This document shows positions 6,327-48,901 of a stretch of 64,000 bases of DNA, piece after piece. The stretch comes from Muribaculaceae bacterium (GTDB lineage Bacteria > Bacteroidota > Bacteroidia > Bacteroidales > Muribaculaceae), in contig JAFLUA010000002.1 of NCBI GenBank assembly GCA_022508985.1, forward strand, positions 1-64,000. The letters are read 5' to 3'. Below the pieces are notes generated by a model. The model did no database searches. It was not told where the DNA came from and was given only the letters and a program-made list of their open reading frames with translations. Position numbers and translations under genes: made by a program. Within the stretch, counting starts at the first letter, position 1. Each line of letters begins with the position of its first letter.

Positions 6327-6344
6327 AATATACTAATCATTTAT

Positions 6345-7659: not shown

Positions 7660-7671
7660 CGATATAGTTAC

Positions 7672-7745
7672 GGGGTATTAGCTCATCCGGCTAGAGCGCG
7701 ACACTGGCAGTGTCGAGGTGAGCGGTTCGAGTCCGCTATACTCCA
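7672..7745 (+). tRNA. tRNA-Ala (anticodon GGC)
   Basis: A 74-base cloverleaf can be drawn in full: acceptor GGGGTAT / ATACTCC, D stem GCTC / GAGC, anticodon stem CGACA / TGTCG with loop CTGGCAG (anticodon GGC at 7706-7708), and T stem AGCGG / CCGCT with loop TTCGAGT. The acceptor has the G3-U70 wobble pair, the identity element of alanine tRNAs, and the discriminator base is A. The 3' CCA is not fully encoded (ACCT follows). An intrinsic terminator lies just downstream, and the 3' end is the left boundary of a genomic island. Confidence 0.95.
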
Positions 7746-7746
7746 C

Positions 7747-7913: not shown

Positions 7914-7968
7914 GGTATACAATAAAAAAATAGATTAATTTACCTTATTCTATTAAATGTAAGTCAAG

Positions 7969-18963: not shown

Positions 18964-19004
18964 GCCTCGACAGGCATGAGATAAACAACACACCGGCAAG
19001 CCAA

Positions 19005-19030
19005 GACATACCCTCACGCAGGGGTATGTC
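19005..19030 (+). terminator. Hairpin after paralogue 2
   Basis: A 9-bp perfect stem GACATACCC / GGGTATGTC with an 8-base loop, 41 bases after the stop. Only a short T run (TTTT) occurs about 12 bases later, so it is a partial match to an intrinsic terminator, or a processing or attenuation hairpin before the next gene. Confidence 0.45.
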
Positions 19031-19097
19031 GCGGCCTGCAGGTTTTACAACGAAAACAAACAACTCTATTATAAACCTTTAATTACACATAACGCTT

Positions 19098-22000: not shown

Positions 22001-22247
22001 CACCGTTACGGCATCGGCCGAGGGCTACGTAACATCTGAGCCCCAAGAATTGAGCTTGACAGAACCCAATGTTATCGTTCTCATCGAAGACACCACAACA
22101 GGCGTTGACAATGTAGCTACCGCCAACGGCGGCGAATGGCGCTACTACAACCTCAGTGGTATCGAAGTGAAGGCCGAAAACCTACGCTCGGGTATCTATA
22201 TCCGCACTAACGGCACTGCTACCGAGAAAGTAGCAATCAGCCGCTAA
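19098..22247 (+). CDS. T9SS-type surface protein with CARDB/Ig-like and carboxypeptidase-regulatory-like domains
   Basis: An exported protein of 1049 residues, signal peptide to about 24 (CGFSIAAQT). An N-terminal beta-rich domain (25-200) is followed by a CARDB-like segment (205-335), an Ig-like HYDIN-type domain (350-445, MNFKLRNRGAASLTIESID), a J-like jelly-roll (447-625), a second CARDB-like segment (630-720), a further beta domain (730-910) and a carboxypeptidase-regulatory-like domain (about 915-990, GTVTISTEDGEPIEGATV). The tail is YYNLSGIEVKAENLRSGIYI, as in the other T9SS-type proteins here. Composition and codon use are more AT-rich than in the two genes before it, which suggests a different age or origin. 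It follows a hairpin but may still be expressed with them. No catalytic motif is visible. Confidence 0.78.
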   Translation: MRHFSTKNLFTALCLLCGFSIAAQTPGEFYEKEDYSVNFTTSNVASSKFVAPEGWDHYVQGSTVSYATTSISAGGYGVGTSNTQTEGNYDLLVTPQVKGTLSFKVRRYVYSAAFKLDVRFYKLTKTDDGFTFDPETDRIEYEIPEDLKPENESTSTTWSEVQTIELGDEYTYIGVRVSEGYVGAFAATSAKIYVPIVKSISLSSANYKEGYTYQVNATEDGKWNIGVTATVKNTSNVPLVASEEENFTISLVRVISTNNPYEYEVLKTVAMPDLELDGEATITIEDEFELPDMSLDNNGVYRFRLDVIENYSGQNKSLNGSWCEVTPYTSILEIRYDKKSTSNGSITETTVEPAKAINYGSFVGSRSMNFKLRNRGAASLTIESIDTPEGVTITDTPTSIAAGESAIIGVAVGGDAGFKEGTITFNTNGEAIVNQIAFTAEVIGEDEFFANFESDDALSEWYVPATSTNWKVADYTTTEMNATENYYYVEYGFNVKRLENTMQTAPQAIYSPLLSFGDNETISFYAAKKSNTGADIKIEVKYSTDRANWIELGTITVTNDDPNLQFSSGTSTSPTSAGQNILKHFSFDMPSGEYYISLGGAYVLIDNFHGGKVVQVDYDIVSETAAVGEAKVVNNPLTFTTSFKNINTADVEADGMVVTLYANDEEVATADGQAIEAGQAADFELSYTPHVAGETTLYAVLSIGDEYSVSSPAVTVKIQNESAVVENTIGTPTTTDSNIPLNTNYNNSKSEFVYTAEDLANLEGTTILKVGYLYYKTGDTHTAETVTIWMQNTEDTSVGSSFTDTNEMTKVMEVSNYDFVKAGTSQNDLALMEFVLDEPFEYDQSKNLRIVIESLGTTYKQAYFAVDKTSGTYSNRTTRYYREDVRSTYENNRNGAGSTTTGMPVIKLYTEASVQEASGTVTISTEDGEPIEGATVRATATEGDVYYEAITDGEGAWSMIIYQDQLTYTVTASAEGYVTSEPQELSLTEPNVIVLIEDTTTGVDNVATANGGEWRYYNLSGIEVKAENLRSGIYIRTNGTATEKVAISR

Positions 22248-22269
22248 GCACGACATATCTCTAATAAGA

Positions 22270-22299
22270 GACGGAGACCTCCGTGGTCTCCGTCTTTTT
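22270..22299 (+). terminator. Intrinsic terminator after the third surface protein gene
   Basis: A 10-bp perfect stem (GACGGAGACC / GGTCTCCGTC) with a 5-base loop and five T residues. It is a strong terminator, yet the next surface-protein gene begins only 18 bases later. Confidence 0.85.
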
Positions 22300-22316
22300 A
22301 GCCTAAAATCTTTTTT

Positions 22317-24773
22317 ATGATTAAACGTATAGCAAATATCGCGGTCGGCATCATGGCATCGGCATTTGTCGTCGCTTGTCCGGCGTTGACGGCAGCACAG
22401 ACAACATCGGCCCTCACGGTGGAGGTATCGGCCGTGACCGGCGTATCAACACAAGGCCTCGTTGTTGAGCTCTATGGCGAAGACAGCGGCTGGGTGTTCG
22501 ACCCCGTCAAGGTCAATGCCACCGGCATCGCAAAGTTTTCTTATGTGCCGGCCGGTGTCTTCACCCTCACCGTCGACGGCACACCTCTCGGCCTTGAGAA
22601 GTATGTCGACACCGAGGTGGAGCACAGCCAAGCCGAGACCATAAGCGTGGTCCTCAAAGAGGCCGTGCGTACGCCCTACGCCCTCAATGCCACACTGAGC
22701 CACGACGACTTCACGGGCAGCAATACGGCCACCTTGTCGTGGAACCGCGAGACCGATTATTTCTTCGACGACTTTGAGAGCTACGAGCCCTTTGCCATCG
22801 ACTTTGCGCCGTGGACAGGACACGACCTCGACAAAGAGCCGGCAGCCGAAATAATGGGCGCATATCCCAACCGCGGCCTGCAGCAGTATGCCACAATCTT
22901 CAATGCCCTCACCATCGACCCGCCAGTCTATTACGAGTATGAGGTGTTGCGGCCCTATAGCGGCAAGCAATATGTGGGCTTCGTGCGCACACGCTCGGGC
23001 AATGCCAACAACGACTGGCTCATATCGCCGAAAATAAAGGTGGGTGTAAACAACGTGGTCAGCTTCATGGCTAAGGCCTCGGAGTATCAGCCCGACCGCT
23101 TCACGGTGTGTATATCCACGACGGGCACCGACGTCAAAGACTTCACGCAGCTCACCCCCGGCAACTATCAGACTGTCGACTATCGCAGCTGGCAAGAAAT
23201 CAGCTACAACCTGTCGGCCTACGAAGGCAAGGAAGTATATATCGCCATACACTGCATATCGCAGGGCAGTTTTATGCTCATGGTCGACGACTTCTATGTC
23301 GGGCCGTCGGAGATGCCGCGCAAAGCACGTCGTGTTAGCCGCCACTCGGCAGCCAACCCCAACGAAGTATTCGTTTTGTCGTTAGACGGTGTAGAGATAG
23401 GGCAAACCGAAGAATACGACTATACCATTGCCGACATAGCGCCCGGCGACCACACCGTGGCTATCAAAGCTAAGTATATTAAAGCCGAGAGCGAGGAGGC
23501 CACAATCGATATCTCTGTGCCGTCGGCCGACAGCTTTGCAGCACTCACCCTCACTCTAAAAGCCGATAATGGCGCCGTGGTGGCTAATCAGGCTGTGAGC
23601 CTCCTCAACACCACGACAGCTAAGATAACATCGGTTACAAGCGACGACAAGGGCGTGGCTGTAGTAGGCTCGCTAGCCAAAGGCTCGTATATGGTGAATG
23701 TGGTGTCGGAACTCTACGACGAATACACCGCTACGATAGAACTAAGCGGCGACCTCAGCACCGAAATAACACTCGCAGAGAGCATTACCGACCCTTATAA
23801 CGTTATCTATCAAGCAAGCGCCGGCGACGACGGCAGCTACGACGTCGAGTTCTGGTGGAACCAAGACCTCGGCTTCCGCGACAGCTTCGAGACCTACGAA
23901 GACTTCTCGCAAGAATTCGGCGACTGGACCATCTACGACGACGATATGATGCCAACCTACGCTTTCAGCATAGGCGGCACCTTAGTGGAAAAACCTGAGA
24001 TGCGTGGCGAAGTAGGCGCTATGATTTTCAACCCCTACGCCACAGCTCCCGTCAAGGCATCGGACGACGGACTATTTATTGCACCCGACGGCGACAAATA
24101 TGTGATGTTCAACTCGGCAGAGAGCACCATGAGCGACGACTGGCTCATATCGCCTACACTGAAGATAGGAGCCGACTATGTGTTCCGCTTCACGGCCAAG
24201 AGTTATACCGAGATGTATGCCGGCACCTTTGAGTTCTGCGTTCTCAGAAACAAAGACAGATACAAGCCCGACATTATCGACGCTTTCTACCTTACCGAAG
24301 ATTGGACACGCTATGAGCTCCCGTTGGCCGCCTATGAAGGCGAAAGCGTTGAAGTGGCCTTCCACCACACCACGCCCGATGGCTGGCTCTCATTTGTCGA
24401 CGACGTTTACGTAGGACCTCGCGACGACACTCCCGACGATGGACCCGATATGTCGAACTGCTCATTCGACGTGTATCTCGACGATATTTTCTGCGGCAAT
24501 GTGGCCGAGCCCTACTTCAAGTTTGAAGGTCTCGCGCCGGGCACATACACAGCAGGCATACAAGCCGTGTACCCCTCGGGTAAGAAGTCAAATCTAACAG
24601 AATTGACCTTTACCGTCGAGAGTAGCGGCATTGCAGAAATCGCCCCCGCAACCGATAGCGCCAGCTGGAAGGTGTATAACCTCAGCGGCATAGAAGTGGC
24701 CGGCGACAATCTGCCCGCCGGTGTTTATATCCGCACCAACGGTCGCATCACCGAGAAAGTGATGGTGAAATAA
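22317..24773 (+). CDS. T9SS-type surface protein with two choice-of-anchor J / cleaved-adhesin-like domains
   Basis: An exported protein of 818 residues with a signal peptide to about 27 (CPALTAAQT). The order is: Cna-B or carboxypeptidase-regulatory-like domain (30-115), J domain (about 140-335, NDWLISPKIKVGVNN, then YNLSAYEGKEVYIAIH), a short Ig-like linker, a second regulatory-like domain (400-495), a second J / cleaved-adhesin domain (500-705, DDWLISPTLKIGADY) and the tail YNLSGIEVAGDNLPAGVYIR...KVMVK. Cleaved-adhesin domains are known from gingipain-type proteins, but there is no protease domain here. It is separated from the gene before it by a strong terminator, so it may have its own promoter. 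None matches the consensus in the short gap, so it may also depend on read-through. Confidence 0.78.
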   Translation: MIKRIANIAVGIMASAFVVACPALTAAQTTSALTVEVSAVTGVSTQGLVVELYGEDSGWVFDPVKVNATGIAKFSYVPAGVFTLTVDGTPLGLEKYVDTEVEHSQAETISVVLKEAVRTPYALNATLSHDDFTGSNTATLSWNRETDYFFDDFESYEPFAIDFAPWTGHDLDKEPAAEIMGAYPNRGLQQYATIFNALTIDPPVYYEYEVLRPYSGKQYVGFVRTRSGNANNDWLISPKIKVGVNNVVSFMAKASEYQPDRFTVCISTTGTDVKDFTQLTPGNYQTVDYRSWQEISYNLSAYEGKEVYIAIHCISQGSFMLMVDDFYVGPSEMPRKARRVSRHSAANPNEVFVLSLDGVEIGQTEEYDYTIADIAPGDHTVAIKAKYIKAESEEATIDISVPSADSFAALTLTLKADNGAVVANQAVSLLNTTTAKITSVTSDDKGVAVVGSLAKGSYMVNVVSELYDEYTATIELSGDLSTEITLAESITDPYNVIYQASAGDDGSYDVEFWWNQDLGFRDSFETYEDFSQEFGDWTIYDDDMMPTYAFSIGGTLVEKPEMRGEVGAMIFNPYATAPVKASDDGLFIAPDGDKYVMFNSAESTMSDDWLISPTLKIGADYVFRFTAKSYTEMYAGTFEFCVLRNKDRYKPDIIDAFYLTEDWTRYELPLAAYEGESVEVAFHHTTPDGWLSFVDDVYVGPRDDTPDDGPDMSNCSFDVYLDDIFCGNVAEPYFKFEGLAPGTYTAGIQAVYPSGKKSNLTELTFTVESSGIAEIAPATDSASWKVYNLSGIEVAGDNLPAGVYIRTNGRITEKVMVK

Positions 24774-35317: not shown

Positions 35318-36769
35318 TCAACGATAAATATGATCGATCTCGGGAGTTTTCGACTTGAAATTTGGCATACACATTCCCGTTTTTGCGCCTATATAAGTAG
35401 GGTCGGAAATCAAGAATGTCTTTCCATCGTAATTGTATGCATCGCCACGAGTCTTTCCCGGAATTGTAACCGAAGCACTTTCATGCCCGGGATAGGCCAG
35501 AAGATGATTCTCTACGCCGAGGACATTCCAAAGCAGATAGGTATAAAAGACCACACGGTCTTCACAATCGCATTTATCATAAAACAGCATCTCTTCAAAG
35601 AAATATGGCTTCTCAAATCCATGATACTGATGGTCGGTGGCATAATCAAAGCCACTCTGCACAAACTGCAATAAAGCATCGACAGCCTCGGCAGTGGGCT
35701 TATCTGCCAACTGAGCCTTCAACTGAGCCACTACATCGCGACGCAAATCGGGGAGCAGCTCCGACTCTGCATAATCGCTAATGGGCATTTGTGGATATTT
35801 ATATATAATAGGGAAGAGATTCTCGTTTACTTCGCCATGTATTTCAACGCCGTCGTGACTCACCGAATACGTTTTGGCTTTATACGGAATATTTATCGGA
35901 TTAAGTCGTAAATCTATTTTTGATGCATTTGCCGCGGCCTTAGGTAGTTGGCACGTCGAAATACGGGTATCCGACATCGAAAGTTTCTCCTGTGGGTCGA
36001 CAAACACATAATACTTCGCATTATCGAATACGAGGAACATATAACCATAAACGGTTTGCTTACATGGAAGCATTAGCAAGGCCTGACCGCTTCCATTCAC
36101 TCCGATACGGGCATCAAAACCAAGATGCGTCATTATATAATGTACAAGCGACGTACGCGACGACGGACTAATATTAGGATACTTGGCCACCGCATAACGC
36201 GCTGCCAGATCATAGGTCAGATAATCGTTAAAATTATGTCTCTTGGCAAGGTCGGAAATGTTTTTAATTAGCTGCTCTGAAGCAGGATTGGCATCGAGCA
36301 TACGCCACTGCTCAGCAAAATCTTTTGTTTTAGATAATCGCTCCATAAGGCGAATATCAACATCCGGAATCTGCATTTCAATACCATAATAACTAAACGT
36401 AAAATCATTACCACCATTAGAAAGCGCAACGGGAGTTGTATCTTTCACAGGCGATACCGCCGGTTTGTCATCCGACCGTCCCGGCTTCGTCGGAGTTGTA
36501 TCGGGTGTCGAATCTGGATCCACAAGCGGTGGCAACTCCGGCTTGGGCGTATTGTTGCGCTCCTGCCCCTTAAAACCACTATATTCCACCCACACCCCGT
36601 CGAGAAACTTGGCATAATCGGCCAATATATCATTGCGGAAGTTATTAAAATCGTCCAACAGACCTCGACGAAAATCTTCGAAAGAAGACTGCATATCGCC
36701 ACTTTGTTGAGAAACGGCACTTACCGACAACATGGCCGACAGTATTATTGTTGTAAGTTTCTTTGACAT
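35318..36769 (-). CDS. Exported transglutaminase-like cysteine enzyme
   Basis: A secreted or periplasmic protein of 483 residues when started at the ATG at 36769 (MSKKLTTIILSAM, signal peptide to about 20). The upstream frame adds an implausible leader. Residues about 20-60 are helical and acidic, then a Pro-rich linker, then a folded region from about 100. The transglutaminase-type triad is visible near the C-terminus: Cys402 in KCDCEDR, His429 in PGHESASV and Asp456 in ISDPTY. This fold covers protein cross-linkers as well as cysteine proteases. It is last of the seven-gene CHASE2-caspase cluster, 74 bases after the previous gene. It may be the effector end of that system, but this is inference. 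Confidence 0.75.
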   Translation of the reverse strand: MSKKLTTIILSAMLSVSAVSQQSGDMQSSFEDFRRGLLDDFNNFRNDILADYAKFLDGVWVEYSGFKGQERNNTPKPELPPLVDPDSTPDTTPTKPGRSDDKPAVSPVKDTTPVALSNGGNDFTFSYYGIEMQIPDVDIRLMERLSKTKDFAEQWRMLDANPASEQLIKNISDLAKRHNFNDYLTYDLAARYAVAKYPNISPSSRTSLVHYIMTHLGFDARIGVNGSGQALLMLPCKQTVYGYMFLVFDNAKYYVFVDPQEKLSMSDTRISTCQLPKAAANASKIDLRLNPINIPYKAKTYSVSHDGVEIHGEVNENLFPIIYKYPQMPISDYAESELLPDLRRDVVAQLKAQLADKPTAEAVDALLQFVQSGFDYATDHQYHGFEKPYFFEEMLFYDKCDCEDRVVFYTYLLWNVLGVENHLLAYPGHESASVTIPGKTRGDAYNYDGKTFLISDPTYIGAKTGMCMPNFKSKTPEIDHIYR

Positions 36770-36843
36770 AGATGTGGGTAGATTTAATAGTTGGTTAATA
36801 GCTACCGACAACAGTCGGCAACACAAATTTAATAATAGTTGAG

Positions 36844-37476
36844 TTACTTGTCAAATCCGGCACGCACGAAATCGGCAATCTTGTTTGCGTGAGCCTGTGC
36901 CAAAGCACTTTCCTTGAGGGCATCTTCGAGTGCACGTTGGCGAGCCTTTGATGCAGCACTTTCACTTACGATATAGTATGTTTGTAGTTCAAATGTGCCA
37001 TCTTTATTATCACGGATTACAGAAAAGCTCTCTTGCATCTCGTTTCTAATTTCTTTTTCAACGAGACGCTCGTAAGCGCTATAGAAGTGTTCGAATTCGC
37101 CTTCAGCATCTGTTCCGTTAGCCGATATGTCGGATACTACGCGACCTTTGAGCGTGCTTCCTGCAAGTTGTGCATAGTTGGTGCAAGCGCTGTTGGCAGC
37201 CATCTGCTTGCCAACATTTTTTGCTTTGAATCGTGAAGCAATACCAACAACTTCATAGCCATCTTCGCCAAGGCTATTAAGCTTATCATAGTGCGATGCA
37301 AGAGCAACTTCGAGAGTGCGAGTTGTGCCAAAGACTTTCCAGCCGTCTTTGTTGTACTCTTTCATCTTTGTTTTCATCTCTTTTTTAAGAGCCTTTTCAA
37401 GTTGTTTGTTTTTTGCCTCTGAAACAGATGGAATCAATAGACATACTGCCAGAAGAAGAATGATAATCTTTTTCAT
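36844..37476 (-). CDS. Exported hypothetical protein of the caspase cluster
   Basis: 210 residues. The signal peptide is residues 1-21 (LLIPSVSEA). The mature part is charged and helical, with KALKKEMKTKMKEYNKDGW at its start, and later a repeated Ala/Glu/Lys heptad pattern suggestive of coiled coil. It has a C-terminal helix of about 40 residues (SKARQRALEDALKESALAQ). Motif-like YEVVGIASRFKAKNVGKQ is conserved-looking, but I do not recognise a family. It lies 31 bases after the DUF4384 gene. No Cys, His or Asp cluster suggests an enzyme. Confidence 0.65.
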   Translation of the reverse strand: MKKIIILLLAVCLLIPSVSEAKNKQLEKALKKEMKTKMKEYNKDGWKVFGTTRTLEVALASHYDKLNSLGEDGYEVVGIASRFKAKNVGKQMAANSACTNYAQLAGSTLKGRVVSDISANGTDAEGEFEHFYSAYERLVEKEIRNEMQESFSVIRDNKDGTFELQTYYIVSESAASKARQRALEDALKESALAQAHANKIADFVRAGFDK

Positions 37477-37507
37477 AATTGATGTTTATTTTGATTAGTT
37501 GATTAAA

Positions 37508-38389
37508 TTATTTTTCAGAACTGATTGTAATGTCAATGGTCTTTACGCCAAGCGAAGGATCGTTTTTTCGCGTTTTTGCCAGCCACGACGAAAACTCTGC
37601 GAAAGGCAAAGAGCGTGGCAGGTTATCACCTGAAAACGAATCGTTAGCCTTGATAAATGGTTGCGGTGAAAAAAGGATGTAGAAACGATCTCGCTCGAGT
37701 TGTTCGTCGGTAACAAGTTGCATCTCATCTACTTCACCATGCAACGCATCGCCTTTTTTGGCATCAAAAAACACGTACTCGCGGCCATGTTTGATTTTTA
37801 CATAACCATCGGGGCTGGCTGTATATGGCAACATTGTATAGGCCATATTATCTTCTCCTGTAAGATACACCGCCATATATCCATCTACCGGGGCCTTAAA
37901 GTACAAGCGCATATCATCGCCCGAGTTAAAGCGAGTATCAGCATAGCGAAGGTCGGTGCCATTCCTAAGTATCGACACTTGGAAATCAGGGGCTTTGTTA
38001 GATATCTCTCGCGCTCGTCCCTTCACGAAACACGTCATAATAAGATTGCCATCGCCATCAAAAGCGGGAGTAAAGACAGGCTCTCCTATGTCTTCAAGCC
38101 ACTCGCCTTTAACCTCCGTTTCGCTGAGAGAGCGAAAAAAAGTATTTTCACCACGCGCATTCACCACTTCATCCGACACGACCGATTGCGTTATCGTTGT
38201 GCCAAATTCTTTGGCTATAGCAGCCAATCGTGCTCCTTGAAGCGCCTCGCGTCGACAATCGGCAGGTGAATGATTACCATCGCCGTAGAATGTATATTCA
38301 GCCGACACTACACGGACAGCCTGTGAATGCGCCAATAGGCACCCTATCACCATAAAAAATATCGCGATTGTCAATCGTATTTGATTCAT
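37508..38389 (-). CDS. Exported DUF4384-like protein
   Basis: 293 residues. A signal peptide ends near residue 23 (IGCLLAHSQA). Residues 25-125 form a first domain with conserved GEARLLA-like repeats (CRREALQGARLAAIAKEFG) seen in LPP20/FlgP-like outer-membrane-associated proteins. Residues about 130-290 match the DUF4384 type, beginning FQVSILRNGTDLRYADTRF, then DMRLYFKAPVDGYMAVYL and a hydrophobic core. DUF4384 domains are known beside or fused to caspase-like or kinase domains in other phyla. Here the start overlaps the caspase gene's stop by 4 bases, so the two are translationally coupled and probably work together. Confidence 0.72.
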   Translation of the reverse strand: MNQIRLTIAIFFMVIGCLLAHSQAVRVVSAEYTFYGDGNHSPADCRREALQGARLAAIAKEFGTTITQSVVSDEVVNARGENTFFRSLSETEVKGEWLEDIGEPVFTPAFDGDGNLIMTCFVKGRAREISNKAPDFQVSILRNGTDLRYADTRFNSGDDMRLYFKAPVDGYMAVYLTGEDNMAYTMLPYTASPDGYVKIKHGREYVFFDAKKGDALHGEVDEMQLVTDEQLERDRFYILFSPQPFIKANDSFSGDNLPRSLPFAEFSSWLAKTRKNDPSLGVKTIDITISSEK

Positions 38390-40995
38390 GGAACAAGTTT
38401 TTTAGATTTCCACATCTCGGTCATAAGACCAGATGTAACGGCTGTCGGTGTCTGTGGTTTTTTGTTTACAAAATTCGATTGGTGTGAAACCTCCTTCGTT
38501 ACATAATCGGCAAGATCCCTCAACGTTACATTTCCCTTGCTATCCTGAATCTTTTTAAGGAGATAATATGTAAACAGACCATGATTTTTCTCGGTATACG
38601 GCAAGGCCGTTTCATTACCTGAAGCTGCGGTCAATACAAACATATTACCCTTAGGAGCAGCCTCTTTTGGTTTGATTACAGCTCCACGCGCTCCTGTTTG
38701 TGCCATAATAGTAGCTCCTTCACGGTCGCTTCGTTCGGCGCCACTGAAACAAGCATCAAGGAATACCATTACCGACTGAGCATTGAGCTCCGAGAGTGTT
38801 TGGTAGAAATCGCTTAGCTTATACCAGGTGCGCGAATTCGTTGGATTGGAGTCACTCGCCAACAGATAAGCCTCTTTCGAGTTTTCATCGGGCAAACCGT
38901 GGCCGGCATAGTACACGATGATTTCGGCGTTTGAGCCTACGACGCCCGACTTACGCTGGAGGTCAACCATAGCATCATATATCTCGGCCAAAGAAGCATT
39001 GGGATAAAATGATATATTCCTTTCGGGGATACCGAGGGTTTTCCTACAATACTCCGAGAAGGTCAAGCCGTCAGCATAAGCCGAGGGCACCTTCGACACA
39101 TTACGATAATTCTCGTTTGCAATTATAAGAGCCAAGGTATTGTTAGATTTCTTCTTTGTCTCGGGTATGTTTTCATCCACATCAGATTTAGCCGCAATAA
39201 GGACAGCATCGTTCGCGGCTCGATTAGTGCGCTGTTGTTCAGAAGGAGTGCCAAGAATCGAAGCGAAGTCAATAGCAATGTCGGGCACGCTATAGTTAAT
39301 GGCACGAGCGTTATTGAATTCATATTTTTTGCCATTAGCTGCGATAAATGTTATCTCTGCAATACGAACGCTATCATCATCGATAAAGAACTTCGGGTTT
39401 TGGAATCGGATAGCCTTCCACCCATCTTTAAATTGCTCTGCCTCGCCATTTTTGAGCGGCACACGCAAATAGATGGGACCATACGACGACACAATCTTAA
39501 AGACCTCATTACCGGCATCATACGGCTGCAGAGCAAGGTCGTTTATGCGCAGACGGCTCGAGTATTCTGCCAGATACTTGTCGGCCGCTTCCTTTTTTAA
39601 TTTGTTATACTCGGCACGTATCGACGTTTGATTTACACGAGCGTTAAAATCGTCCATTCGCTCGAATTCGCCTTTCTTAGCCCATGCACCAAGACGTGTG
39701 GTGATATATTCACGACCAAAATCGCTATATGAGGGAGCATCTTTTAGCGCTGAGCCTTGTGATGTGGCAAAATTCTCTTTTCCATCACCATTATACGTCA
39801 TACTTGGTGGCATAAAGACCTCTGCAAGAGGGTCTTCACCCAATAGGCGCAAACGCTCGTTTATTTTTTCAAAATTGTATTTATCTTCCAAGCAAAGGTA
39901 ACATACGCCAAGACTGCGAAGATATGGCACTGATGTCGGAGCAGATTCAAGTACGTCGCGGAATTTATCAGAAGCCGATGCAAAATAGTTTTTAGCACGA
40001 CGGCGCAACCGCGAAGCAGCCTTCTCATCCGATTGATTAATGGCAGAATTAAATGCATCGACAGCCTGGTTGTAATAACAAAGGGCTATGTGCTTCGCTG
40101 TAGATAATGAATTAGGACGTATCTCTTCAAGCGTTGTGTATATGCTTAAAGCTTTCTCGTAATCGCCGGCATCCTCGTAGAGCTTCCCTTGGATGTCAAG
40201 GAGCCGTTCATCTACCGGATTAGCCTCCAGTGCCTGAGTGAGGAATTGCTGCAAGTGTTCTCCACGTCCGCCATCTATACACATCTGCATGGCAACAAGT
40301 AAAATGTGTTTATGTCCCGGAAACAGAGTGAGAGCCTCTTGAGCCGTTGCAATACCGAGATCCCATTGTTCAGCTTGCAAACAAGACTGCACCATAAACA
40401 CATACACCTGTTCGCGTTGGCTATTATCGCCTGTTGATAGGTATATCTTAAAATAATCTATAGCGCGAGCATACTCTTTTACATTGTACGCTCCCGATGC
40501 CGATATATACGCTAACATGGCCAATGTGCCCGAATCAAGTTCTATAGCATCATTTTTGAAGGCATCGAGCAACGATACATCAAGGTATGCTTGCGCAAAT
40601 TTGGTCATTTCGGCCTGGTTACTTGCCTTGGAATAGAAGAAAGCGCCTTCCAACAAATCGCGCTGAGTGTCGCGCAACAACTCCTTGGCTTGATGCCATT
40701 CGCGACTCTGCTCTTCTTGAGCCAAAAGGGCTTCACGTCCTTCTTCATAGCATTGATACGACATAGGGCTTACTATCTCGAGTGGTTCTCCTTCGAATTT
40801 AAGGAATTTAAGTTCCTTAAACGTCGTAAGAGCTCGATTAAGCAGTGAATCGGGAGTTATCACCTCCTCTACCTCTTCTATTTCTTCGGTGTTGGAAGCA
40901 TTGTCTTTATCTTCTGCGGGGTTGCCCGAGGCATAAAACCCGGTCCAGAAGACCAGAACGAGGATGCCAATTATGGATATTAACTTTTTAGCCAT
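38386..40995 (-). CDS. TPR protein with C-terminal caspase (peptidase C14) domain
   Basis: A bacterial orthocaspase-type protease of 869 residues. A signal or anchor helix (about 5-23) leads to an acidic segment, then tetratricopeptide-like helices (about 100-395, for example residues 265-345). Residues 442-562 form a beta-rich module shared with the next gene upstream. The caspase domain covers about 618-855. Its catalytic dyad is His699 in IIVYYAGHG and Cys749 in VFLDACFSG; Asp-rich flanks are as in metacaspases. The export signal would put it in the periplasm or outside, unlike typical cytoplasmic caspases. It lies 3 bases after the WD40-like gene, and its stop overlaps the DUF4384 gene. 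Substrates are unknown; it is the likely protease of the cluster. Confidence 0.85.
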   Translation of the reverse strand: MAKKLISIIGILVLVFWTGFYASGNPAEDKDNASNTEEIEEVEEVITPDSLLNRALTTFKELKFLKFEGEPLEIVSPMSYQCYEEGREALLAQEEQSREWHQAKELLRDTQRDLLEGAFFYSKASNQAEMTKFAQAYLDVSLLDAFKNDAIELDSGTLAMLAYISASGAYNVKEYARAIDYFKIYLSTGDNSQREQVYVFMVQSCLQAEQWDLGIATAQEALTLFPGHKHILLVAMQMCIDGGRGEHLQQFLTQALEANPVDERLLDIQGKLYEDAGDYEKALSIYTTLEEIRPNSLSTAKHIALCYYNQAVDAFNSAINQSDEKAASRLRRRAKNYFASASDKFRDVLESAPTSVPYLRSLGVCYLCLEDKYNFEKINERLRLLGEDPLAEVFMPPSMTYNGDGKENFATSQGSALKDAPSYSDFGREYITTRLGAWAKKGEFERMDDFNARVNQTSIRAEYNKLKKEAADKYLAEYSSRLRINDLALQPYDAGNEVFKIVSSYGPIYLRVPLKNGEAEQFKDGWKAIRFQNPKFFIDDDSVRIAEITFIAANGKKYEFNNARAINYSVPDIAIDFASILGTPSEQQRTNRAANDAVLIAAKSDVDENIPETKKKSNNTLALIIANENYRNVSKVPSAYADGLTFSEYCRKTLGIPERNISFYPNASLAEIYDAMVDLQRKSGVVGSNAEIIVYYAGHGLPDENSKEAYLLASDSNPTNSRTWYKLSDFYQTLSELNAQSVMVFLDACFSGAERSDREGATIMAQTGARGAVIKPKEAAPKGNMFVLTAASGNETALPYTEKNHGLFTYYLLKKIQDSKGNVTLRDLADYVTKEVSHQSNFVNKKPQTPTAVTSGLMTEMWKSKKLVP

Positions 40996-40998
40996 TGC

Positions 40999-43095
40999 TT
41001 AGAATGCATCGATAAATGTAAACTCAACAGATATACGGCGGAATTCCGAACCCTTATCCTTAGCCACCTCAATATTATAGCGATACGATGTATTCATCTT
41101 ATCAAGGTCGTTAACATTTGATGAGAGATAGTTGCGCACGCTAAATGCTCTGAGGAATGCCAATTGCTCATTTTCTGTAACGAGCTGCTTCGGCTGTATT
41201 GTCATCGGACGAATCTTGCCATCTTGGTACACCGGAACTTCGAGTATATCTCCATATGTTCCATCGTATGGAATACGGCTAACGATAGGTGTGGCATCGG
41301 CTGTGCCCGATATGGTTATATTAAGTTTCTTGCCTTCTTTTACATACTGCGAGAAGTCGCCTTCAAGAGCCTCTTTCACAATGGCAAGCATAGCGCCTGC
41401 CGCACCTGATTGCTCTGCATGGTATTTGCCGGGGGCGAAATCCTCTGTAGCAGTAAAGCCGGGATCGACCTGATATGTGAAGTTCACGTGATAATTCAAT
41501 ATTTTCTTGCCATTTGCATCATAGTCGGGGTCGATACGTGAATCTACGGCTATATTGGTATGTTGCGATATAACACTACGAGATATGGCCTCGGCTACAA
41601 CTCTTTGACGTATTTCCTCGAGGCGTTGTTCTTCCATTTGTTGTTGGAGTATGAGCTCGAGCGACACCACATTGTCGGTATCGGTCATGAAATTGAGAGC
41701 TGCGCGTTCGATATTATTGTAGACGTATGTCTTACCATTGCTGCTATTATATACCTCGGCATAGATAAGCTCAAAATTATCGTTACTCATAACGCCATAT
41801 TTAGCGTTTTTGAATTCGAGGCTGCCATCGTTATTATAGAAGGCCGAAAGGTCGCTTTCGGGTACGGGGAGGAAAATTGCGGGCATATTAGAGAAATCGA
41901 CCTCAAGCACTCCGTTGATACGGTCGTACTTACCAAGATTCCACGACGACATCGACAACATATCAGGAGCAAGACGCGTAGATATTTCGTCTTCAAAAAG
42001 ACGTCTTTGACGCTCGCGAGATTCATCATTTACACGAGCCCGGTATTCTTCCAACGTTTCACCTTCACGCATTTTCATCCAATCGTTAAGACGATCGTTT
42101 ACCTCATCGTTTATAAGACGTGCATAGTGAGGCGTTAAGTGTCCCATTTTACGGATGTTAACAGCATTTAGGCTGTTGTAAGCCAACATTGTTTTATTTT
42201 GCGAGTCAGGCACAAAACGCAAGGTGCTCATGCCTCCTTCTGTAACATATATGTTCTCTCTGTCAGACAGCTGCAACAAATTTATCACCACGATTTTTTC
42301 GGGCGATTCAGCAACGGCAAGATATTTGCCATCGAAGTTATAGCAGCACGACAATGCGCCATCGAGGTCATCTATACTTTTCTTAATTAGGAAATTACGT
42401 GTGTCAAAGATGCTTATTCCACCATCGTCGGTAGCCACTGCAAGCTCGGTATTAGTATCATTGAAAGCAACATCATTAATTTTCACATCAAAATCCCACT
42501 CTTTTCTAAGTGTCCGCTCTTCAAGGTTATACACTGAAAGTTTCGACCCTTGGGCCACGGCAAGATAGTAGCCGTTCGACGACGGCTCGAGTATCTCTAC
42601 CTGCTTATACTTCAATGGTATACGTTCTACAAGCATACGTGTTGGAGCTTCAAGTATATTCAGACCCGAGTCTGTAGCCAACAAGATGCTGAGAGCATCG
42701 TGAGTGTATGCCACGGCATAGGGCGTACCTAATTTTTTGGAATTTACTTTATATAATACCTCGGCATCGCTCGAGTTCTGTACTATAACACCAAGATTTT
42801 TCTTGCCATCTTCTGCCACAAGGAAGAAGCTATTGCAAAACGGATTAGCGTCGGCATCGATAAGTTGTTTGCCGAGAGTTGCCATTTCACTACCCGACAA
42901 AGAACGCAAGGTGTTTGCCGTACGAGTATAAACACCGGGTCCCGAAATTATCAGGGCGTCGGGTGTCGTTTTGAAACGATTAAAACGCGTAGTTAAATTT
43001 TCTGTTTCCGAGTAAGATTCCTGAGCAACGGCAGGAACAGTGATGCATGCTGCAAGTGCAATCAATGCAAAGCGAAAGTAGTTGATGTTTTTCAT
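40999..43095 (-). CDS. Exported WD40-like propeller protein with shared module and OmpA-like end
   Basis: 698 residues. A signal peptide ends near 24 (ITVPAVAQES). Residues about 45-320 show beta-propeller repeats with WD40-like features (for example VAVAQGSKLSVYN, LAVATDDGGISIFDTRN, YLAVAESPEKIVVINL). Residues 343-461 are the module shared with the caspase protein (EEYRARVNDESRERQ, then GKTYVYNN). A helix follows (480-505). The last 130 residues resemble a degenerate OmpA-like peptidoglycan-binding domain (ITISGTADATPI, LAFLRAFSVRNYL, FRRISVEFTF). The order suggests a wall-tethered propeller scaffold. It is 3 bases upstream of the caspase gene, so they are probably made together (inference). 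Confidence 0.75.
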   Translation of the reverse strand: MKNINYFRFALIALAACITVPAVAQESYSETENLTTRFNRFKTTPDALIISGPGVYTRTANTLRSLSGSEMATLGKQLIDADANPFCNSFFLVAEDGKKNLGVIVQNSSDAEVLYKVNSKKLGTPYAVAYTHDALSILLATDSGLNILEAPTRMLVERIPLKYKQVEILEPSSNGYYLAVAQGSKLSVYNLEERTLRKEWDFDVKINDVAFNDTNTELAVATDDGGISIFDTRNFLIKKSIDDLDGALSCCYNFDGKYLAVAESPEKIVVINLLQLSDRENIYVTEGGMSTLRFVPDSQNKTMLAYNSLNAVNIRKMGHLTPHYARLINDEVNDRLNDWMKMREGETLEEYRARVNDESRERQRRLFEDEISTRLAPDMLSMSSWNLGKYDRINGVLEVDFSNMPAIFLPVPESDLSAFYNNDGSLEFKNAKYGVMSNDNFELIYAEVYNSSNGKTYVYNNIERAALNFMTDTDNVVSLELILQQQMEEQRLEEIRQRVVAEAISRSVISQHTNIAVDSRIDPDYDANGKKILNYHVNFTYQVDPGFTATEDFAPGKYHAEQSGAAGAMLAIVKEALEGDFSQYVKEGKKLNITISGTADATPIVSRIPYDGTYGDILEVPVYQDGKIRPMTIQPKQLVTENEQLAFLRAFSVRNYLSSNVNDLDKMNTSYRYNIEVAKDKGSEFRRISVEFTFIDAF

Positions 43096-43130
43096 TTTTT
43101 ATCTTTTCTTGAATTTTATACTATGTTATG

Positions 43131-44015
43131 TTAGAAAGCTTTAAGATAAATTGGCAACTCAAGTGTCGGACCGTCTTTCTTTTCTTTATCGCCAAGCTCG
43201 GTTGCTATGCTCTCTATCAAATCATCGATAGAAAAATAATAGTGAGCGGCAACAAGGATGTGCGTTTGGTCGGCTTTTGCACCTTTACTTTGTCGACGCA
43301 TTATTGCCTGGTTAGGCAATAGCACATAACAACCTACCGGCTGGCCAAGTTCCGAGATGCGATATTTGCCTTTACCATCGTTCTCCGGCAGTATCTTTAT
43401 TACATTTACATATAGAGGCACATCGCTGGTATTGTCGAGCTCGAAACTAATCAGACCGCTGTCGGTGTGTTCACAACGGAGACCAACAGGAAAGTTTTCG
43501 CCGAGTTTGTCAGGGCTGACAGTATTGAGTTTATTAGCTGCATATGCGGCTAATACCTTTGCGTCAACCATAAAATCATCACTGGTAGGATCGTAATCTT
43601 CCAGTGCAAGCGTAATTTTTCCTTTTTCAACATACATCTTGCCTTCTTCAGGTGATGACGATTTCGTCATGCCGATATTGCGGTGAATATTCGACAGATT
43701 CGACGAAGCGGCTTTCTTCGCATCTATCACCAACGTATTGGGTGATACTTCGCCCGGAATATTGCGAGTATATTCACTTGAGCTTGCTTTGTCGAATATA
43801 ACCACTTCTGCGCCCTGCCCTATCACTATTAGGTCGAAAGCGCCGATAGGCATTCCCTGCGTAGCTGCTACAGCTTGTCCGGCATGTTTTATTTTAACAT
43901 CGCCCTTGAACGAAGACACGCTATATTGACCAAAAGCCATCGCCGCATTTAGCATTATAAGCGCGAATAATACCACAAGTCGCGTCATAAACGACATGTT
44001 GCCAATTGTTTTCAT
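43131..44015 (-). CDS. Exported FecR-like protein
   Basis: 294 residues. The start was placed at the ATG at 44015 (MKTIGNMSFM); an apparent start two codons earlier is TTG. A signal peptide ends near 30 (AAMAFGQ). Residues about 30-85 resemble the FecR beta domain (YSVSSFKGDVKIKHAGQ, GAFDLIVIGQGAEVVIFD), which in envelope signalling systems relays a stress signal. The remainder, about 140-290, has a beta-rich part with SFELDNTSDVPLYVNV and ends in a His/Tyr helix. It lies 12 bases after the CHASE2 gene and 35 before the WD40-like gene, all on one strand. A FecR-type module with no anti-sigma partner is unusual. Confidence 0.65.
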   Translation of the reverse strand: MKTIGNMSFMTRLVVLFALIMLNAAMAFGQYSVSSFKGDVKIKHAGQAVAATQGMPIGAFDLIVIGQGAEVVIFDKASSSEYTRNIPGEVSPNTLVIDAKKAASSNLSNIHRNIGMTKSSSPEEGKMYVEKGKITLALEDYDPTSDDFMVDAKVLAAYAANKLNTVSPDKLGENFPVGLRCEHTDSGLISFELDNTSDVPLYVNVIKILPENDGKGKYRISELGQPVGCYVLLPNQAIMRRQSKGAKADQTHILVAAHYYFSIDDLIESIATELGDKEKKDGPTLELPIYLKAF

Positions 44016-44027
44016 TGTCAATTTCGA

Positions 44028-45200
44028 TTAATATTCTTTTTTCCTAAGTTTCCTTGTCTTGTAATAATCACAAAATCCCTTTATGCCAAAACAAATATCC
44101 GACACAAACAATACGAATGTCAACATTAGTATTGCATAAGAGAAATTTATAACGACGCATTTATCTATGAAATAATGGTAGCCGATTACAATTATCACAT
44201 ATAGTAATAATAGCTGAACGAATCGCAATACAAGAGCTCTAAATCCCGGATAAAGTATCGTATATAGAAATGCGAGAATAAAGCATAATGCAAATGCTAT
44301 TATTGTACTCCAAAAGCTATTTAACGGCTCAAGATAGTTTTCATTCATTATCGTTCCAAGGATATGTGCATGAATCTCTATGCCAGATACTTGGCGCCGA
44401 TGCGGGGTCGCATGCTTATCGCTAAGATTATCAACAGCACCTATTAAAACTACATGATCTCGAATATCTTCTGCATGCAAGCCGAGCTCTTCCCAATATA
44501 CTGTTTTGAAGCGCCTTGACGGATAGTTTATCAGCTCATACTGTCGCTTGTGACTGCGGAGCCTGTTAACAATTGTAGTGTCTACTTGCTCGGCAACAGC
44601 CACTGCAAACGACGGTATTTTCGCCCCCAATGAGTCGGGATAATCGACGCGAAACTCGCGCACGACGCCTCCCGCATACTTTGTAGGCAGGTTAGAAGCC
44701 CCATAGGGGCGATCTTTCATCTGCTCATAAAAGTACGATGTTTCTCCAAGATGAAAAGTCTGTGCATTGCGTGCCTTATCTGCAACGACATCGACTATCA
44801 TCACCATATCGGGCAACGCTTGTATCGAAGATATCAACAGACTATCATTGGCATGCTCCACATCGAACGTTACATCCAGGCCCACAACCTTTGGCTCAAA
44901 GTCAGGCAAGGCCTCGAGTATCACTGCGACATCTTCTCTTGTCGCGCCACTAATATCAAGAATTGTAATGTTGCGGTCGACAGCACGGACAGACCTACTA
45001 TCGGCTACAATATTATAAAAATCGGTTATATCAAAATCGCTTTTATCGTTTGTTGAAACCAAAGTGGCAACCGATACTGAAAATGGTTGCATCAACACAA
45101 ACGAAAGACCCCACGCCAAGGCTGTGATAGCAAGGGCTATTCCAACCTTAGTCAGACAACATATCCAAATGGGGGGGGTATTTTTAATCCTGATACTCAA
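44028..45200 (-). CDS. CHASE2-domain membrane protein without an output domain (TTG start)
   Basis: 390 residues. One N-terminal membrane helix (about 17-38) is followed by an extracytoplasmic CHASE2 domain (about 75-290; RNITILDISGATREDVAVIL, PKVVGLDVTFD, VVREFRVDY, VVLIGAVDN, VSGIEIHAHILGTIM are typical). Three membrane helices follow (301-323, 329-352, 356-378). The cytoplasmic tail is only about 12 residues, basic (KTRKLRKKEY), so it has no kinase, cyclase or phosphodiesterase. CHASE2 is normally the sensor part of such enzymes. The only start codon in frame is TTG at 45200; no ATG or GTG lies between the -7 box (45264-45271) and codon 36. Codons 8-10 carry a run of eight C bases, a possible slipped-strand site. 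First gene of the cluster. Confidence 0.72.
   Translation of the reverse strand: MSIRIKNTPPIWICCLTKVGIALAITALAWGLSFVLMQPFSVSVATLVSTNDKSDFDITDFYNIVADSRSVRAVDRNITILDISGATREDVAVILEALPDFEPKVVGLDVTFDVEHANDSLLISSIQALPDMVMIVDVVADKARNAQTFHLGETSYFYEQMKDRPYGASNLPTKYAGGVVREFRVDYPDSLGAKIPSFAVAVAEQVDTTIVNRLRSHKRQYELINYPSRRFKTVYWEELGLHAEDIRDHVVLIGAVDNLSDKHATPHRRQVSGIEIHAHILGTIMNENYLEPLNSFWSTIIAFALCFILAFLYTILYPGFRALVLRFVQLLLLYVIIVIGYHYFIDKCVVINFSYAILMLTFVLFVSDICFGIKGFCDYYKTRKLRKKEY
45171..45178 (-). repeat. C8 run near the 5' end of the CHASE2 gene
   Basis: Eight C bases on the coding strand (ACC CCC CCC, residues 8-10) within 30 bases of the start. A change by one base would put the reading frame out of register. 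Long G/C runs at this place are the classical form of phase-variable genes, but a run of eight also occurs by chance about once in a window of this size. Confidence 0.5.
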
Positions 45201-45263: not shown

Positions 45264-45271
45264 CAAAGGTA
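45264..45271 (-). promoter_or_regulatory. -7 box of the CHASE2-caspase cluster
   Basis: TACCTTTG on the minus strand, 63 bases before the TTG start. No strict TTTG -33 partner. It is back to back with the box of the plus-strand gene at 45305-45312. Confidence 0.4.
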
Positions 45272-46444: not shown

Positions 46445-48901
46445 ATGAAAAAACTTTTACTTTCTTTTGTTGCCCTTATCGGTTTAAGCAGCCTCGCTTT
46501 TGCCGAAAGCGTAACGTTTGACTTTACCCAAAACGACTATGGATTAGATCGTTGGGACAATGACAAAGGAACCGGCGGTTATCTTGAAGATGGCCAGACT
46601 ATAGAATCGGGCGATGTAACTATCACATTCCATGGCGGATGGCGCCTTTGGACCGATGGTATCCGCGAATATTACAAAAATGGCGCATCGTTTACAGTGA
46701 CAGCCGACGGCGAAAGCGTTACCGGCGTTACTCTCGATGTCGTTTCAGGTGCTACCTTCAAAGTTGAAGGATATAACAACGGTGCCAACATCACATCATG
46801 GACCGGCTCGGAAGCTTCTGTAACTTTTGTTACGACAGCTACCGCTAACAAAGCCGTTAAAACTATCACAGTATATTACGGCGAAGGAACACCCGATATT
46901 CCCGACACTCCCGAAACACCGGCAGCTCCCGAAGGCGTAATTACCGTTACCGAAGCGCTTGCTATCATTGCGTCGAACAATATCCCCACCGATGCAGTGC
47001 AGGTTAAAGGTATAATCTCAACTATTGAAGAAGTTAGTCCTAATTACGGCAACGCCACTTTCGATATCGTTGACAAAGCCGGCGACACTAACGCCTTGAA
47101 AATTTTCCGCACAAAATGGTTTGATGGCCAAAACTTCACATCGGAAAACCAAATTGGCGTTGGCGCCGAAGTTGTGGTTGAAGGCGTGCTCCAAAACTAT
47201 AATGGCACTCCCGAGATTACCACGGGCAAAATTATAAGCTATAACGGTGAAACATCTAGTGAAACTCCCGAGACTCCCGACGATCCTAAAGATCCCGACA
47301 CCCCATCAGAATCGACAGCGCTCAACGTTAACGACGCTGAAGACATCGTCGGTACTTTTAACGAAGAAAAGCTCAAAGATGATGGCTCTGTTCAACAAGC
47401 TGCCAACTATCAGCCGCTACAATCATTTATGCTCGGTGGCTACACCTTCGAATTCTCTACTACAAGCACAACCGCCTCGCAAATGCCGGCATACTATTAT
47501 GCTACGTCGACAAATGCCAATCAACAGAAGACGGTTCGCATCTATAGCGGTACAACAATGAAAATCACAGCTCCCGAAGGCGTTAATATGACCAAGGTTG
47601 AATTCACAGGCTCTAATCTCGGAAACAATGCAGCATTTACCGTTGATAAAGGCTCGTGGACAACACAGAATAACGCCGTATGGACAGGCTCGGCTAACTC
47701 ATTCTCTGTAACAGCCAATGCCACTTGGCGCATGTCGGAACTCGTTGTTTACACCGGCGAAGGCGGTGAAACACCCGAAAACCCCGACGAAACAACCGTT
47801 ATTTTTAGCGAAACATTCGGCACAAGCCTTGGCGACTTCACTATCGAAGACAAAGTGATTCCCGAAGAATTGACCTACGTTTGGTCGTTTGCCGCTAACT
47901 ACGGCGCTAAAGCGTCGGCTTTTTACAACAGCACCAACTACGCAACAGAAAGCTGGCTCATCTCGCCCGTTATCGACTTGAGCACTTTCACCGACCTTAC
48001 CCTTTCGTTTGACCACGCCACCAACTACTTCGAAGACGCCACAACAGCTACCGGCGTTTACGTCCGTGAAGAAAACGGCGAATGGACTGCCCTCACTGCT
48101 ACTTATCCCGAGACACAAAGCTGGACTTTTGTCAACTCTGGTCTTATCGACATCGACAAATACCAAGGCAAGAAAATACAGCTCGGATTCAAATATACAT
48201 CTACCGACACTAAAGCCGGCACATGGGAAATTAAAAACGTGCTTGTGAAAGGCGAAGGTGAAGGCGAAGTCGACGTTCCGGTTCAACCCGCTACCGAACA
48301 ATATGCAAAAGTTACTGAAATAGTAGCCGGCAAATCATACGTATTCGCAGCCGACGGCAAACTCTGCTCTGCTGTAGCTCCGAGCCTCACATACGGACGT
48401 TGGACACTCGTTGACGCTACTTTCACCGACAACGAAGTCGCTTCTGCTCCCGCTAATGCTGTCCTCATCACTGAAGGCGACGACGGCTATCTCCTACAAG
48501 ATGCCGACGGACGTTACATCGCAATGGACTCAGGCCACACCACCACCTTCCAGATTTTCACCGAAATCAACGAAGGTTGCTACTGGCTCATCGACTTTGA
48601 AGAGACGGGCGAAGTTGTTATCTCAAACAACCTCACCGGTGCCGTTGTATGCCAAAGCGTTGGTGCTAATGGCACATTCTACACCAACGTTGCACCTGCA
48701 ATCCTCACTGCCGAATCTGTTTATAACCTCCCCACTATCTACATGAAGAAAGCAGAATCGGGCATCGCCAACATTATAAGCAGCGATGAAAACGCTCCCG
48801 TTGAATACTTCAACCTCCAGGGCGTTCGCGTTGCTAACCCCGAAAACGGCCTGTATATCCGCCGTCAAGGCAACACCGTAACAAAAGTTATCGTGAAATA
48901 A
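46445..48901 (+). CDS. T9SS-type exported protein with OB-fold and choice-of-anchor J domains
   Basis: 818 residues, signal peptide to about 20 (LSSLAFAES). Domains in order: a beta-rich domain (22-135, FTQNDYGLDRWDND); a Pro-linker; an OB-fold DUF5689/DUF6359-like domain (160-270, VQVKGIISTIEEV, IGVGAEVVVEGVLQNYNG); a second Pro-linker; a domain like the first (about 295-435); a choice-of-anchor J domain (450-605, ATESWLISPVIDL, YQGKKIQLGFKYTS); a small beta domain (615-750); and the tail YFNLQGVRV...NGLYIRRQGNTVTKVIVK. OB-folds of this kind accompany exported nucleases, as with the gene 37 bases upstream, so the two may be one unit. It has no catalytic motif. A strong terminator follows. 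Confidence 0.78.
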   Translation: MKKLLLSFVALIGLSSLAFAESVTFDFTQNDYGLDRWDNDKGTGGYLEDGQTIESGDVTITFHGGWRLWTDGIREYYKNGASFTVTADGESVTGVTLDVVSGATFKVEGYNNGANITSWTGSEASVTFVTTATANKAVKTITVYYGEGTPDIPDTPETPAAPEGVITVTEALAIIASNNIPTDAVQVKGIISTIEEVSPNYGNATFDIVDKAGDTNALKIFRTKWFDGQNFTSENQIGVGAEVVVEGVLQNYNGTPEITTGKIISYNGETSSETPETPDDPKDPDTPSESTALNVNDAEDIVGTFNEEKLKDDGSVQQAANYQPLQSFMLGGYTFEFSTTSTTASQMPAYYYATSTNANQQKTVRIYSGTTMKITAPEGVNMTKVEFTGSNLGNNAAFTVDKGSWTTQNNAVWTGSANSFSVTANATWRMSELVVYTGEGGETPENPDETTVIFSETFGTSLGDFTIEDKVIPEELTYVWSFAANYGAKASAFYNSTNYATESWLISPVIDLSTFTDLTLSFDHATNYFEDATTATGVYVREENGEWTALTATYPETQSWTFVNSGLIDIDKYQGKKIQLGFKYTSTDTKAGTWEIKNVLVKGEGEGEVDVPVQPATEQYAKVTEIVAGKSYVFAADGKLCSAVAPSLTYGRWTLVDATFTDNEVASAPANAVLITEGDDGYLLQDADGRYIAMDSGHTTTFQIFTEINEGCYWLIDFEETGEVVISNNLTGAVVCQSVGANGTFYTNVAPAILTAESVYNLPTIYMKKAESGIANIISSDENAPVEYFNLQGVRVANPENGLYIRRQGNTVTKVIVK

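Follow-up and report, generated by a model that had tools for sequence, protein, structure and literature searches.

We analyzed a window of 64,000 nucleotides (positions 1 to 64,000 of contig JAFLUA010000002.1) from a Muribaculaceae bacterium whose genome assembly comprises 2.07 Mb in 18 contigs, the window being part of contig 11. Within this window lies a cluster of seven open reading frames (ORFs) on the minus strand, g1 to g7, spanning positions 35318 to 45200 (Table 1). Gaps of 6, 35, 3, and 31 bases separate g1 from g2, g2 from g3, g3 from g4, and g5 from g6, respectively; g4 and g5 share a 4-base overlap, and the gap between g6 and g7 is 17 bases to the ORF start or 74 bases to the g7 ATG. 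A sequence-only reading of this DNA had described seven leftward genes, and its order, spacing, and catalytic residues were all confirmed. Among the names it gave to the proteins, CHASE2, WD40, and TPR-caspase were upheld and an OmpA-like tail was found likely, but FecR was not supported, and DUF4384 stayed below threshold in the window; its transglutaminase-like label is considered below with g7.

Table 1. Positions of the cluster genes, their domains, and promoter-like elements in the window (aa, amino acids)
Feature	Position	Strand	Description	Evidence
g1	44028..45200	-	CHASE2 membrane protein, 390 aa	PF05226 77.5 bits (cut-off 26.3), residues 87-309; hydrophobic segments; 14 sequences aligned
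g2	43131..44021	-	putative exported CHASE2 partner, 296 aa	
g3	40999..43095	-	putative exported WD40 propeller + X domain + OmpA-like tail, 698 aa	
g3 X domain	41536..42153	-	profiled over residues 315-520; core near 320-465	
g3 OmpA-like tail	41002..41559	-	residues 513-698, likely peptidoglycan anchor	
g4	38386..40995	-	putative exported TPR + X + caspase (peptidase C14), 869 aa	PF00656 59.6 bits (cut-off 21.4), residues 621-854
g4 X domain	39181..39798	-	residues 400-605	profile matches
g4 caspase domain	38392..39180	-	His699 codon 38899-38901, Cys749 codon 38749-38751	
g5	37508..38389	-	putative exported, 293 aa; DUF4384-related region residues 154-210	
g6	36844..37476	-	putative exported, 210 aa, no family	
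g7	35318..36826	-	putative exported LapG/transglutaminase-like cysteine peptidase; ATG 36769, 483 aa	
g7 catalytic domain	35321..35788	-	residues about 328-483; Cys402 35564-35566, His429 35483-35485, Asp456 35402-35404	
Promoter-like site before g7, Bacteroidetes type	36824..36855	-	TTTG-N18-21-TAnnTTTG	
-7 box TACCTTTG upstream of g1	45264..45271	-		

The caspase domain of g4 lies behind TPRs, well above its Pfam cut-off. Its His699/Cys749 dyad was invariant in all 15 aligned proteins, and in a wider count of caspase domains the His was present in 104/104 and the Cys in 103/104. By profile and dyad, g4 fits peptidase C14 (orthocaspase). In g3, the WD40-type propeller was recovered by a family match and a confident structure prediction, and all 50 matches listed in a structure search with the predicted protein were to the propeller. 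The g3 tail aligned by hhalign with Bacteroidales OmpA domains taken from 13 of 30 loci and picked by motif (27%, E of 6.6e-4), with the GxAD and RA motifs in register. In OmpA_C-like domains, a conserved Asp and Arg are the peptidoglycan-site residues; the Asp and Arg aligned with them were each present in 91 of 91 g3 tails. At E ≤ 1, Pfam OmpA (PF00691) did not match g3, and none of its seven hits in the same genome was g3. The tail is likely OmpA-like, judged from the alignment.

A search with g4 also matched g3, through g4 residues 420 to 597, and this shared region is referred to here as domain X. The X-region profiles of the two proteins found each other (independent E-values [iE] of 3e-18 for the g4 profile on g3 and 4e-14), hhalign aligned them with an E of 2e-46 over 180 columns, and a Pfam scan of g3 and g4 listed no family over X. 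Against 295 genomes of the order, the X profile gave 37 matches in 32 genomes, 30 of which were fetched as loci. Among the 29 loci with a readable X ORF, a caspase domain was C-terminal to X in 21 (window g4 included) and WD40 was N-terminal to X in 6; one of the other two lay beside WD40 in another frame, and L284 had neither. The L286 locus carries WD40, X, and caspase in one chain (PF00400, 5e-80; X and caspase by derived profiles), and L266 and L270 encode WG-repeat proteins fused to X and caspase. Overall, 213 distinct X ORFs, a selection biased to g3, comprised 110 with caspase, 96 with WD40, and 7 others, 5 of which were cut or frameshifted genes by position. Because X is common to both and its carriers mostly have a caspase or WD40 domain, a single architecture appears to be divided between g3 and g4.

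The second cysteine enzyme is g7, whose Cys402/His429/Asp456 triad was invariant in 58 of 58 aligned proteins and, residue by residue, in 77 of 77 in a further count. The presence of two cysteine enzymes, as proposed from the sequence alone, is supported by the dyad and the triad. The predicted structure of g7 has a transglutaminase-like fold, with LapG as the nearest solved fold at a modest Z-score. The protein reached no family's cut-off in Pfam or NCBIfam. The Transglutaminase core profile (PF01841) matched 1 of 15 members at an E of 0.072, and hhalign against domains from 24 of 30 Transglut_core loci gave 51% (E of 1.5e-4) with the catalytic Cys aligned. Peptidase_C93 (PF06035) was considered and rejected, being absent from the eight families matched by any of the 15 members and from all 61 genomes searched, the source genome included. 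We describe the predicted g7 as having a LapG-like fold, and not as LapG. LapG is a periplasmic protease, and with it as the closest solved structure, cross-linking by g7 appears less likely than proteolysis; of the "protein-cross-linking/proteolysis" suggested earlier, the second half is favored. As a separate observation, g7 relatives in L154, L168, L171, and L172 adjoin genes that resemble those for carboxypeptidase-regulatory proteins and small lipoproteins (by Pfam in L154 and by eye in the others), and the stretch displayed contains no caspase.

A simple hydropathy analysis, not a signal-peptide program, showed a hydrophobic N terminus in window g1 to g6. Window g7, when read from its upstream TTG, has no such N terminus, but 14 of 15 aligned g7 proteins have one. 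Because of these N termini, all seven cluster proteins are probably either exported from the cytoplasm or membrane bound. The envelope placement given earlier agrees with hydropathy; its count of six does not.

To examine conservation, g4 was compared with 149 genomes of the same family, and 40 regions were fetched and annotated with the seven window proteins and derived profiles. Some g4 match, TPR-only matches included, was found in 72 genomes, and among the matches listed at least 46 genomes had caspase-region matches, a patchy distribution. All seven genes occurred in order on one contig in 13 of the 149 genomes, the source genome counted; in two of these, g2 is split into two ORFs (G003) or g7 runs off the contig (G012). 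In one genome (G136), the seven genes are divided between the ends of two contigs. Loci L072 to L151, annotated likewise, formed a second, named set made up of the best 80 of 128 g3-anchored matches, with g3 present by construction. The flanks of g3 were judged sufficient (at least 3 kb on the upstream side and 8.5 kb on the downstream side) in 48 of the 80, where g4 lay beside g3 in all 48, g5 was found in 46, g6 in 41, g7 in 41, and all seven in 18. In the 80 loci, neither g1 nor g2 occurred without the other. Alternative gene orders such as g6-g3-g4-g5-g7 exist, a tandem g7 pair ends the cluster in L123, L130, L131, and L134, and L051 holds all seven families in two divergent units by remote matches (g2 at an iE of only 1e-3).

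The cluster proteins of relatives in other genera were approximately 30 to 70% identical to those of the window, and the nearest named relatives were records labelled Muribaculaceae and Porphyromonadaceae. With kinship ignored, the divergence of all 21 gene pairs across 23 clusters was correlated (r, 0.72 to 0.95; 0 of 500 permutations reached any pair's value), and co-occurrence in the family genomes, many of the compared genomes being metagenome assemblies, gave P values of 1e-18 for g7 and caspase, 2e-9 for g1 and caspase, and 1e-7 for g1 and g7. For this count, we dropped 21 second pieces of g7 genes already counted, together with TPR-only and weak (E above 1.2e-16) g4 matches; one caspase row (G008:C24) was kept at an E of 1.2e-16, weaker than 1e-20, and supports one of the 34 g7-caspase pairs. 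A phylum-wide g3 search of 395 genomes at a strict E ≤ 1e-20, with at most two candidates per genome scored among the matches listed, returned the source genome only. These comparisons of gene content and divergence show the seven genes to be a co-inherited unit. The linkage expected from the sequence-only reading is found in relatives, and with all seven genes in only 18 of 48 loci, g1-g2 is, by gene content, an optional module.

The CHASE2 profile of g1 lies between membrane segments, one N-terminal and about three C-terminal, and a family-profile search found no output domain in g1, which supports the earlier description of a CHASE2 sensor lacking one in its own chain. The g2 protein reached no family's cut-off in Pfam or NCBIfam. 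Its former FecR label, a resemblance by eye only, was not supported and was rejected: none of 13 g2 proteins matched PF04773, hhalign gave 3.8% against 24 Bacteroidales FecR domains (from 24 of 30 loci), and a FecR profile search of the source genome gave no hits. The g1 profile gave 32 hits in 29 of the 149 family genomes, 14 within seven-gene clusters and 18 outside them, with g7 within 120 bp of 8 of the latter. In L161, from the window's genus, CHASE2, weak Sel1 repeats, and caspase C14 form one chain of 1307 aa (5134-9057), followed by a g2-like gene, and L165 has the arrangement g1-caspase-g2. In L156 (4111-9362), g1, a g2-like gene, and a gene for a TPR-CHAT protein with a hydrophobic N terminus stand in a row, and in L158 (1531-10103) the g1 and g2-like genes stand directly after an alpha-2-macroglobulin gene and before one that resembles a serine beta-lactamase gene (the last by eye). 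The L153, L154, and L164 loci contain g7-g1-g2 runs, and the stretches fetched for them include no caspase; L155, L162, and L163 contain similar runs with a contig end nearby or a caspase further off (g2 of L155 by eye). Among 68 placed g7 hits, 34 were within 10 kb of a caspase, 21 were within 10 kb of g1, and 27 were near neither. The sensor, the caspase, and g7 are thus tied together by several gene arrangements, and at the level of gene neighborhood CHASE2 plus g2 is shown to recur beside putatively exported caspase-fold proteases or g7.

The Bacteroidetes-type promoter motif TTTG-N18-21-TAnnTTTG had 9 occurrences in the window, where 0.97 would be expected, and one of them immediately precedes g7; it is a useful guide for calling operons elsewhere. 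For the 80 named loci, a gene was taken as first when no listed gene lay within the preceding 400 bases. The -7 boxes were found upstream of first g1 in 20/32 cases, first g3 in 21/37, and first g6 in 7/9, and upstream of inner genes in 3/34 (g2), 5/43 (g3), 7/75 (g4), 1/63 (g5), 3/55 (g6), and 3/63 (g7) cases. Six g5 and one g7 scored as first had none (0/6 and 0/1), as did one g1 scored as inner. The full motif was rarer than the -7 box (first g1, 9/32; first g3, 2/37; inner g3, 2/43; none elsewhere). Because -7 boxes precede first genes far more often than inner genes, their distribution is biased as an operon would show. Two points modify the earlier reading: the optional nature of g1-g2 and the promoter-like site of window g7 itself, an exception given that the full motif preceded 0 of 63 inner g7 genes of relatives.

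The window copy of g5 scored 20.6 bits against the DUF4384 (PF14326) cut-off of 27, and 13 of 15 members matched at E ≤ 0.1 (best, 2.1e-7); DUF4384 is a weak assignment, sub-threshold in the window copy. The g6 protein reached no family's cut-off in Pfam or NCBIfam and weakly resembles the N-terminal half of g5 (hhalign, 84%; E of 7.5e-6 over 79 columns). In Bacteroides-type loci (L116, L128, L132, and L137 to L140), extra genes follow g4 and, where g5 is in view, precede it; no g5 was found in L137. A Pfam scan of ten proteins from L137 to L140 identified Mfa_like_1 (fimbrillin-like) domains in five proteins, CarboxypepD_reg in two, and Lcl_C in four (two above the cut-off), some of them combined in a single protein. 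These proteins offer the best substrate lead.

Around the cluster, two of seven neighboring genes tested had relatives, in five loci, and many loci end near the cluster. Elsewhere in the window, four large adjacent genes on the plus strand (12350-24773) encode probable surface proteins with HYDIN-type Ig, Cleaved_Adhesin, and CarboxypepD_reg domains. An 818-aa protein encoded near the cluster (46445-48901) matched no Pfam family at E ≤ 1e-5, and its C terminus resembles a surface-sorting tail by eye.

We give roughly an even chance to the reading that the cluster encodes an envelope (periplasmic), scaffolded two-protease signaling or processing system. In such a system, g3 would bind peptidoglycan through its OmpA-like tail and hold the WD40 propeller as a docking platform. 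Pairing of the X domains may recruit the TPR-caspase g4 to g3, and the scaffold would then be where the protease is positioned and perhaps activated. Together with g2, the inner-membrane CHASE2 protein g1 would sense an envelope condition; that this is envelope stress, as suggested earlier, is conjecture. LapD holds LapG, and because g1 has no cytoplasmic output domain, it may by analogy act by binding or releasing envelope partners such as g7 or the caspase. The envelope or surface proteins cleaved by the caspase and the LapG-like peptidase would be few, and g5 and g6 would be accessory proteins; candidate clients in the Bacteroides-type variants are the fimbrillin-like lipoproteins whose genes lie downstream of g4. 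A more specific version, which we put forward tentatively, is a periplasmic apoptosome-like machine, in which the wall-anchored WD40 scaffold would recruit and activate the exported TPR-caspase through the matching X domains, under a CHASE2 sensor that would operate entirely on the outer face of the inner membrane and would also control the LapG-like protease. If true, a caspase signaling cascade would here run beyond the cytoplasm, and such systems would form a family across Bacteroidales.

Other explanations fit parts of the same evidence. Gingipains process FimA, and LapG releases LapA; by analogy, the caspase and LapG-like peptidase may serve the maturation or display of surface proteins by processing or releasing fimbrillin-like lipoproteins or adhesins. 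The Mfa_like_1, CarboxypepD_reg, and Lcl_C domains downstream of g4 in L137 to L140 point this way, as do the roughly 2.6 kb that separate g4 from g5 in the family genomes L047 and L050 (carboxypeptidase-regulatory-like genes by eye in L047), the beta-barrel-like genes adjoining several lone caspases (by eye), and the LPP20, DUF6175, and CarboxypepD_reg protein genes that neighbor g7 elsewhere. However, g5 directly follows g4, without an intervening gene, in the window and in those seven-gene clusters that were read, the fimbrillin evidence comes from Pfam on those ten proteins only, and the CHASE2 sensor is left unexplained. We regard this explanation as doubtful. Quality control or nutrient proteolysis of an ordinary periplasmic kind, with no regulated signal, would agree with two conserved enzymes that look exported, with an optional g1-g2, and with the alpha-2-macroglobulin gene beside g1-g2 in L158; it is unlikely, since the dedicated scaffold, the shared X, and the fused forms suggest a specific protease with a set location and not bulk degradation.

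Defense or programmed death, in which a trigger would cause an envelope caspase to kill an invader or the cell itself, is very unlikely, although caspases, WD40, TPR, CHASE2, and CHAT occur in conflict systems (in part after passages of PMC8195603). The patchy distribution of the caspase and the best NCBIfam hit of g4, NF047832 (EACC1-type caspase), would suit this reading, but that hit scored 73.8 bits against a cut-off of 140, and PADLOC left six of the seven proteins unmatched and gave a weak 15.6-bit hit on g3 only, so assignment to a known antiphage defense system was rejected. The parts look exported, and neither a nucleotide-binding switch nor a toxin domain was found in the seven proteins. 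A mobile-element origin was likewise rejected: no phage matched g3, and 12 plasmid records matched parts of g4, none covering 80%.

Bacterial caspase relatives are usually discussed as death or defense enzymes. A conserved set of proteins that all look exported or membrane bound would give gut Bacteroidales an envelope proteolytic system in which a caspase is paired with a LapG-like peptidase and X links the WD40 scaffold to the caspase, as the natural WD40-X-caspase fusion supports. The set makes testable the role of exported bacterial caspases and the action of a CHASE2 sensor with no output domain of its own. In the open-access literature (subscription papers and preprints were outside the scope), no paper was found that combined caspase, CHASE2, and FecR or that concerned peptidase C14, periplasm, and Bacteroides. 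The seven-part set is absent from the passages seen of PMC3501461, PMC8195603, PMC5587647, PMC2853523, PMC7475262, PMC5053529, PMC5192318, PMC3355149, and PMC6426788. No known system was matched, in agreement with the earlier statement that none with this set was described.

The cluster shares individual parts with several known systems. The likeness to LapD/LapG (LapG is peptidase C93) lies in the predicted transglutaminase-like fold and Cys-His-Asp triad of g7. In contrast to that system, the cluster has no PF06035 match, its sensor is CHASE2, and no GGDEF/EAL protein is among the seven, in a search that covered the cluster; g7 is linked to a caspase and scaffold, and no LapA-type adhesin was identified. 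The EACC/TRADD-N conflict systems, as far as the passages of PMC8195603 describe them, have caspase proteins with a variable C terminus that can be CHASE2, whereas g4 is below the NF047832 cut-off and family searches named no EACC or TRADD-N domain. The Burkholderia BiofilmReg operon, according to passages of PMC5192318, has a membrane sensor with CHASE2 next to an exported protein with a FecR domain, but that sensor works as a histidine kinase alongside a response regulator, and g2 fails the FecR tests. PorE/PG1058 of type IX secretion, according to the passages of PMC5053529, combines TPR, a WD40-type propeller, a carboxypeptidase-regulatory domain, and an OmpA_C-like domain in one periplasmic lipoprotein chain with no caspase; here, the propeller, X, and OmpA-like tail are in g3 and TPR, X, and caspase are in g4, so that no chain of the TPR-propeller-carboxypeptidase-regulatory-OmpA type is present. 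The passages on prokaryotic orthocaspases and metacaspases (PMC3501461, PMC2853523, and PMC7475262) describe the His/Cys dyad of the caspase domain. They count WD40 as one of the domains most often fused to it, and they report a Trichodesmium protein with CHASE2 and caspase in one chain and an OmpA domain in 14 metacaspase operons. Those passages do not describe a LapG-like partner, g2, g5, or g6, and here the parts look exported or membrane bound, with WD40 and caspase on separate chains that share X. Altogether, the cluster is genuine and, so far as searched, an undescribed variant of the bacterial caspase systems that probably sits in the envelope; the mechanism proposed for it is plausible.

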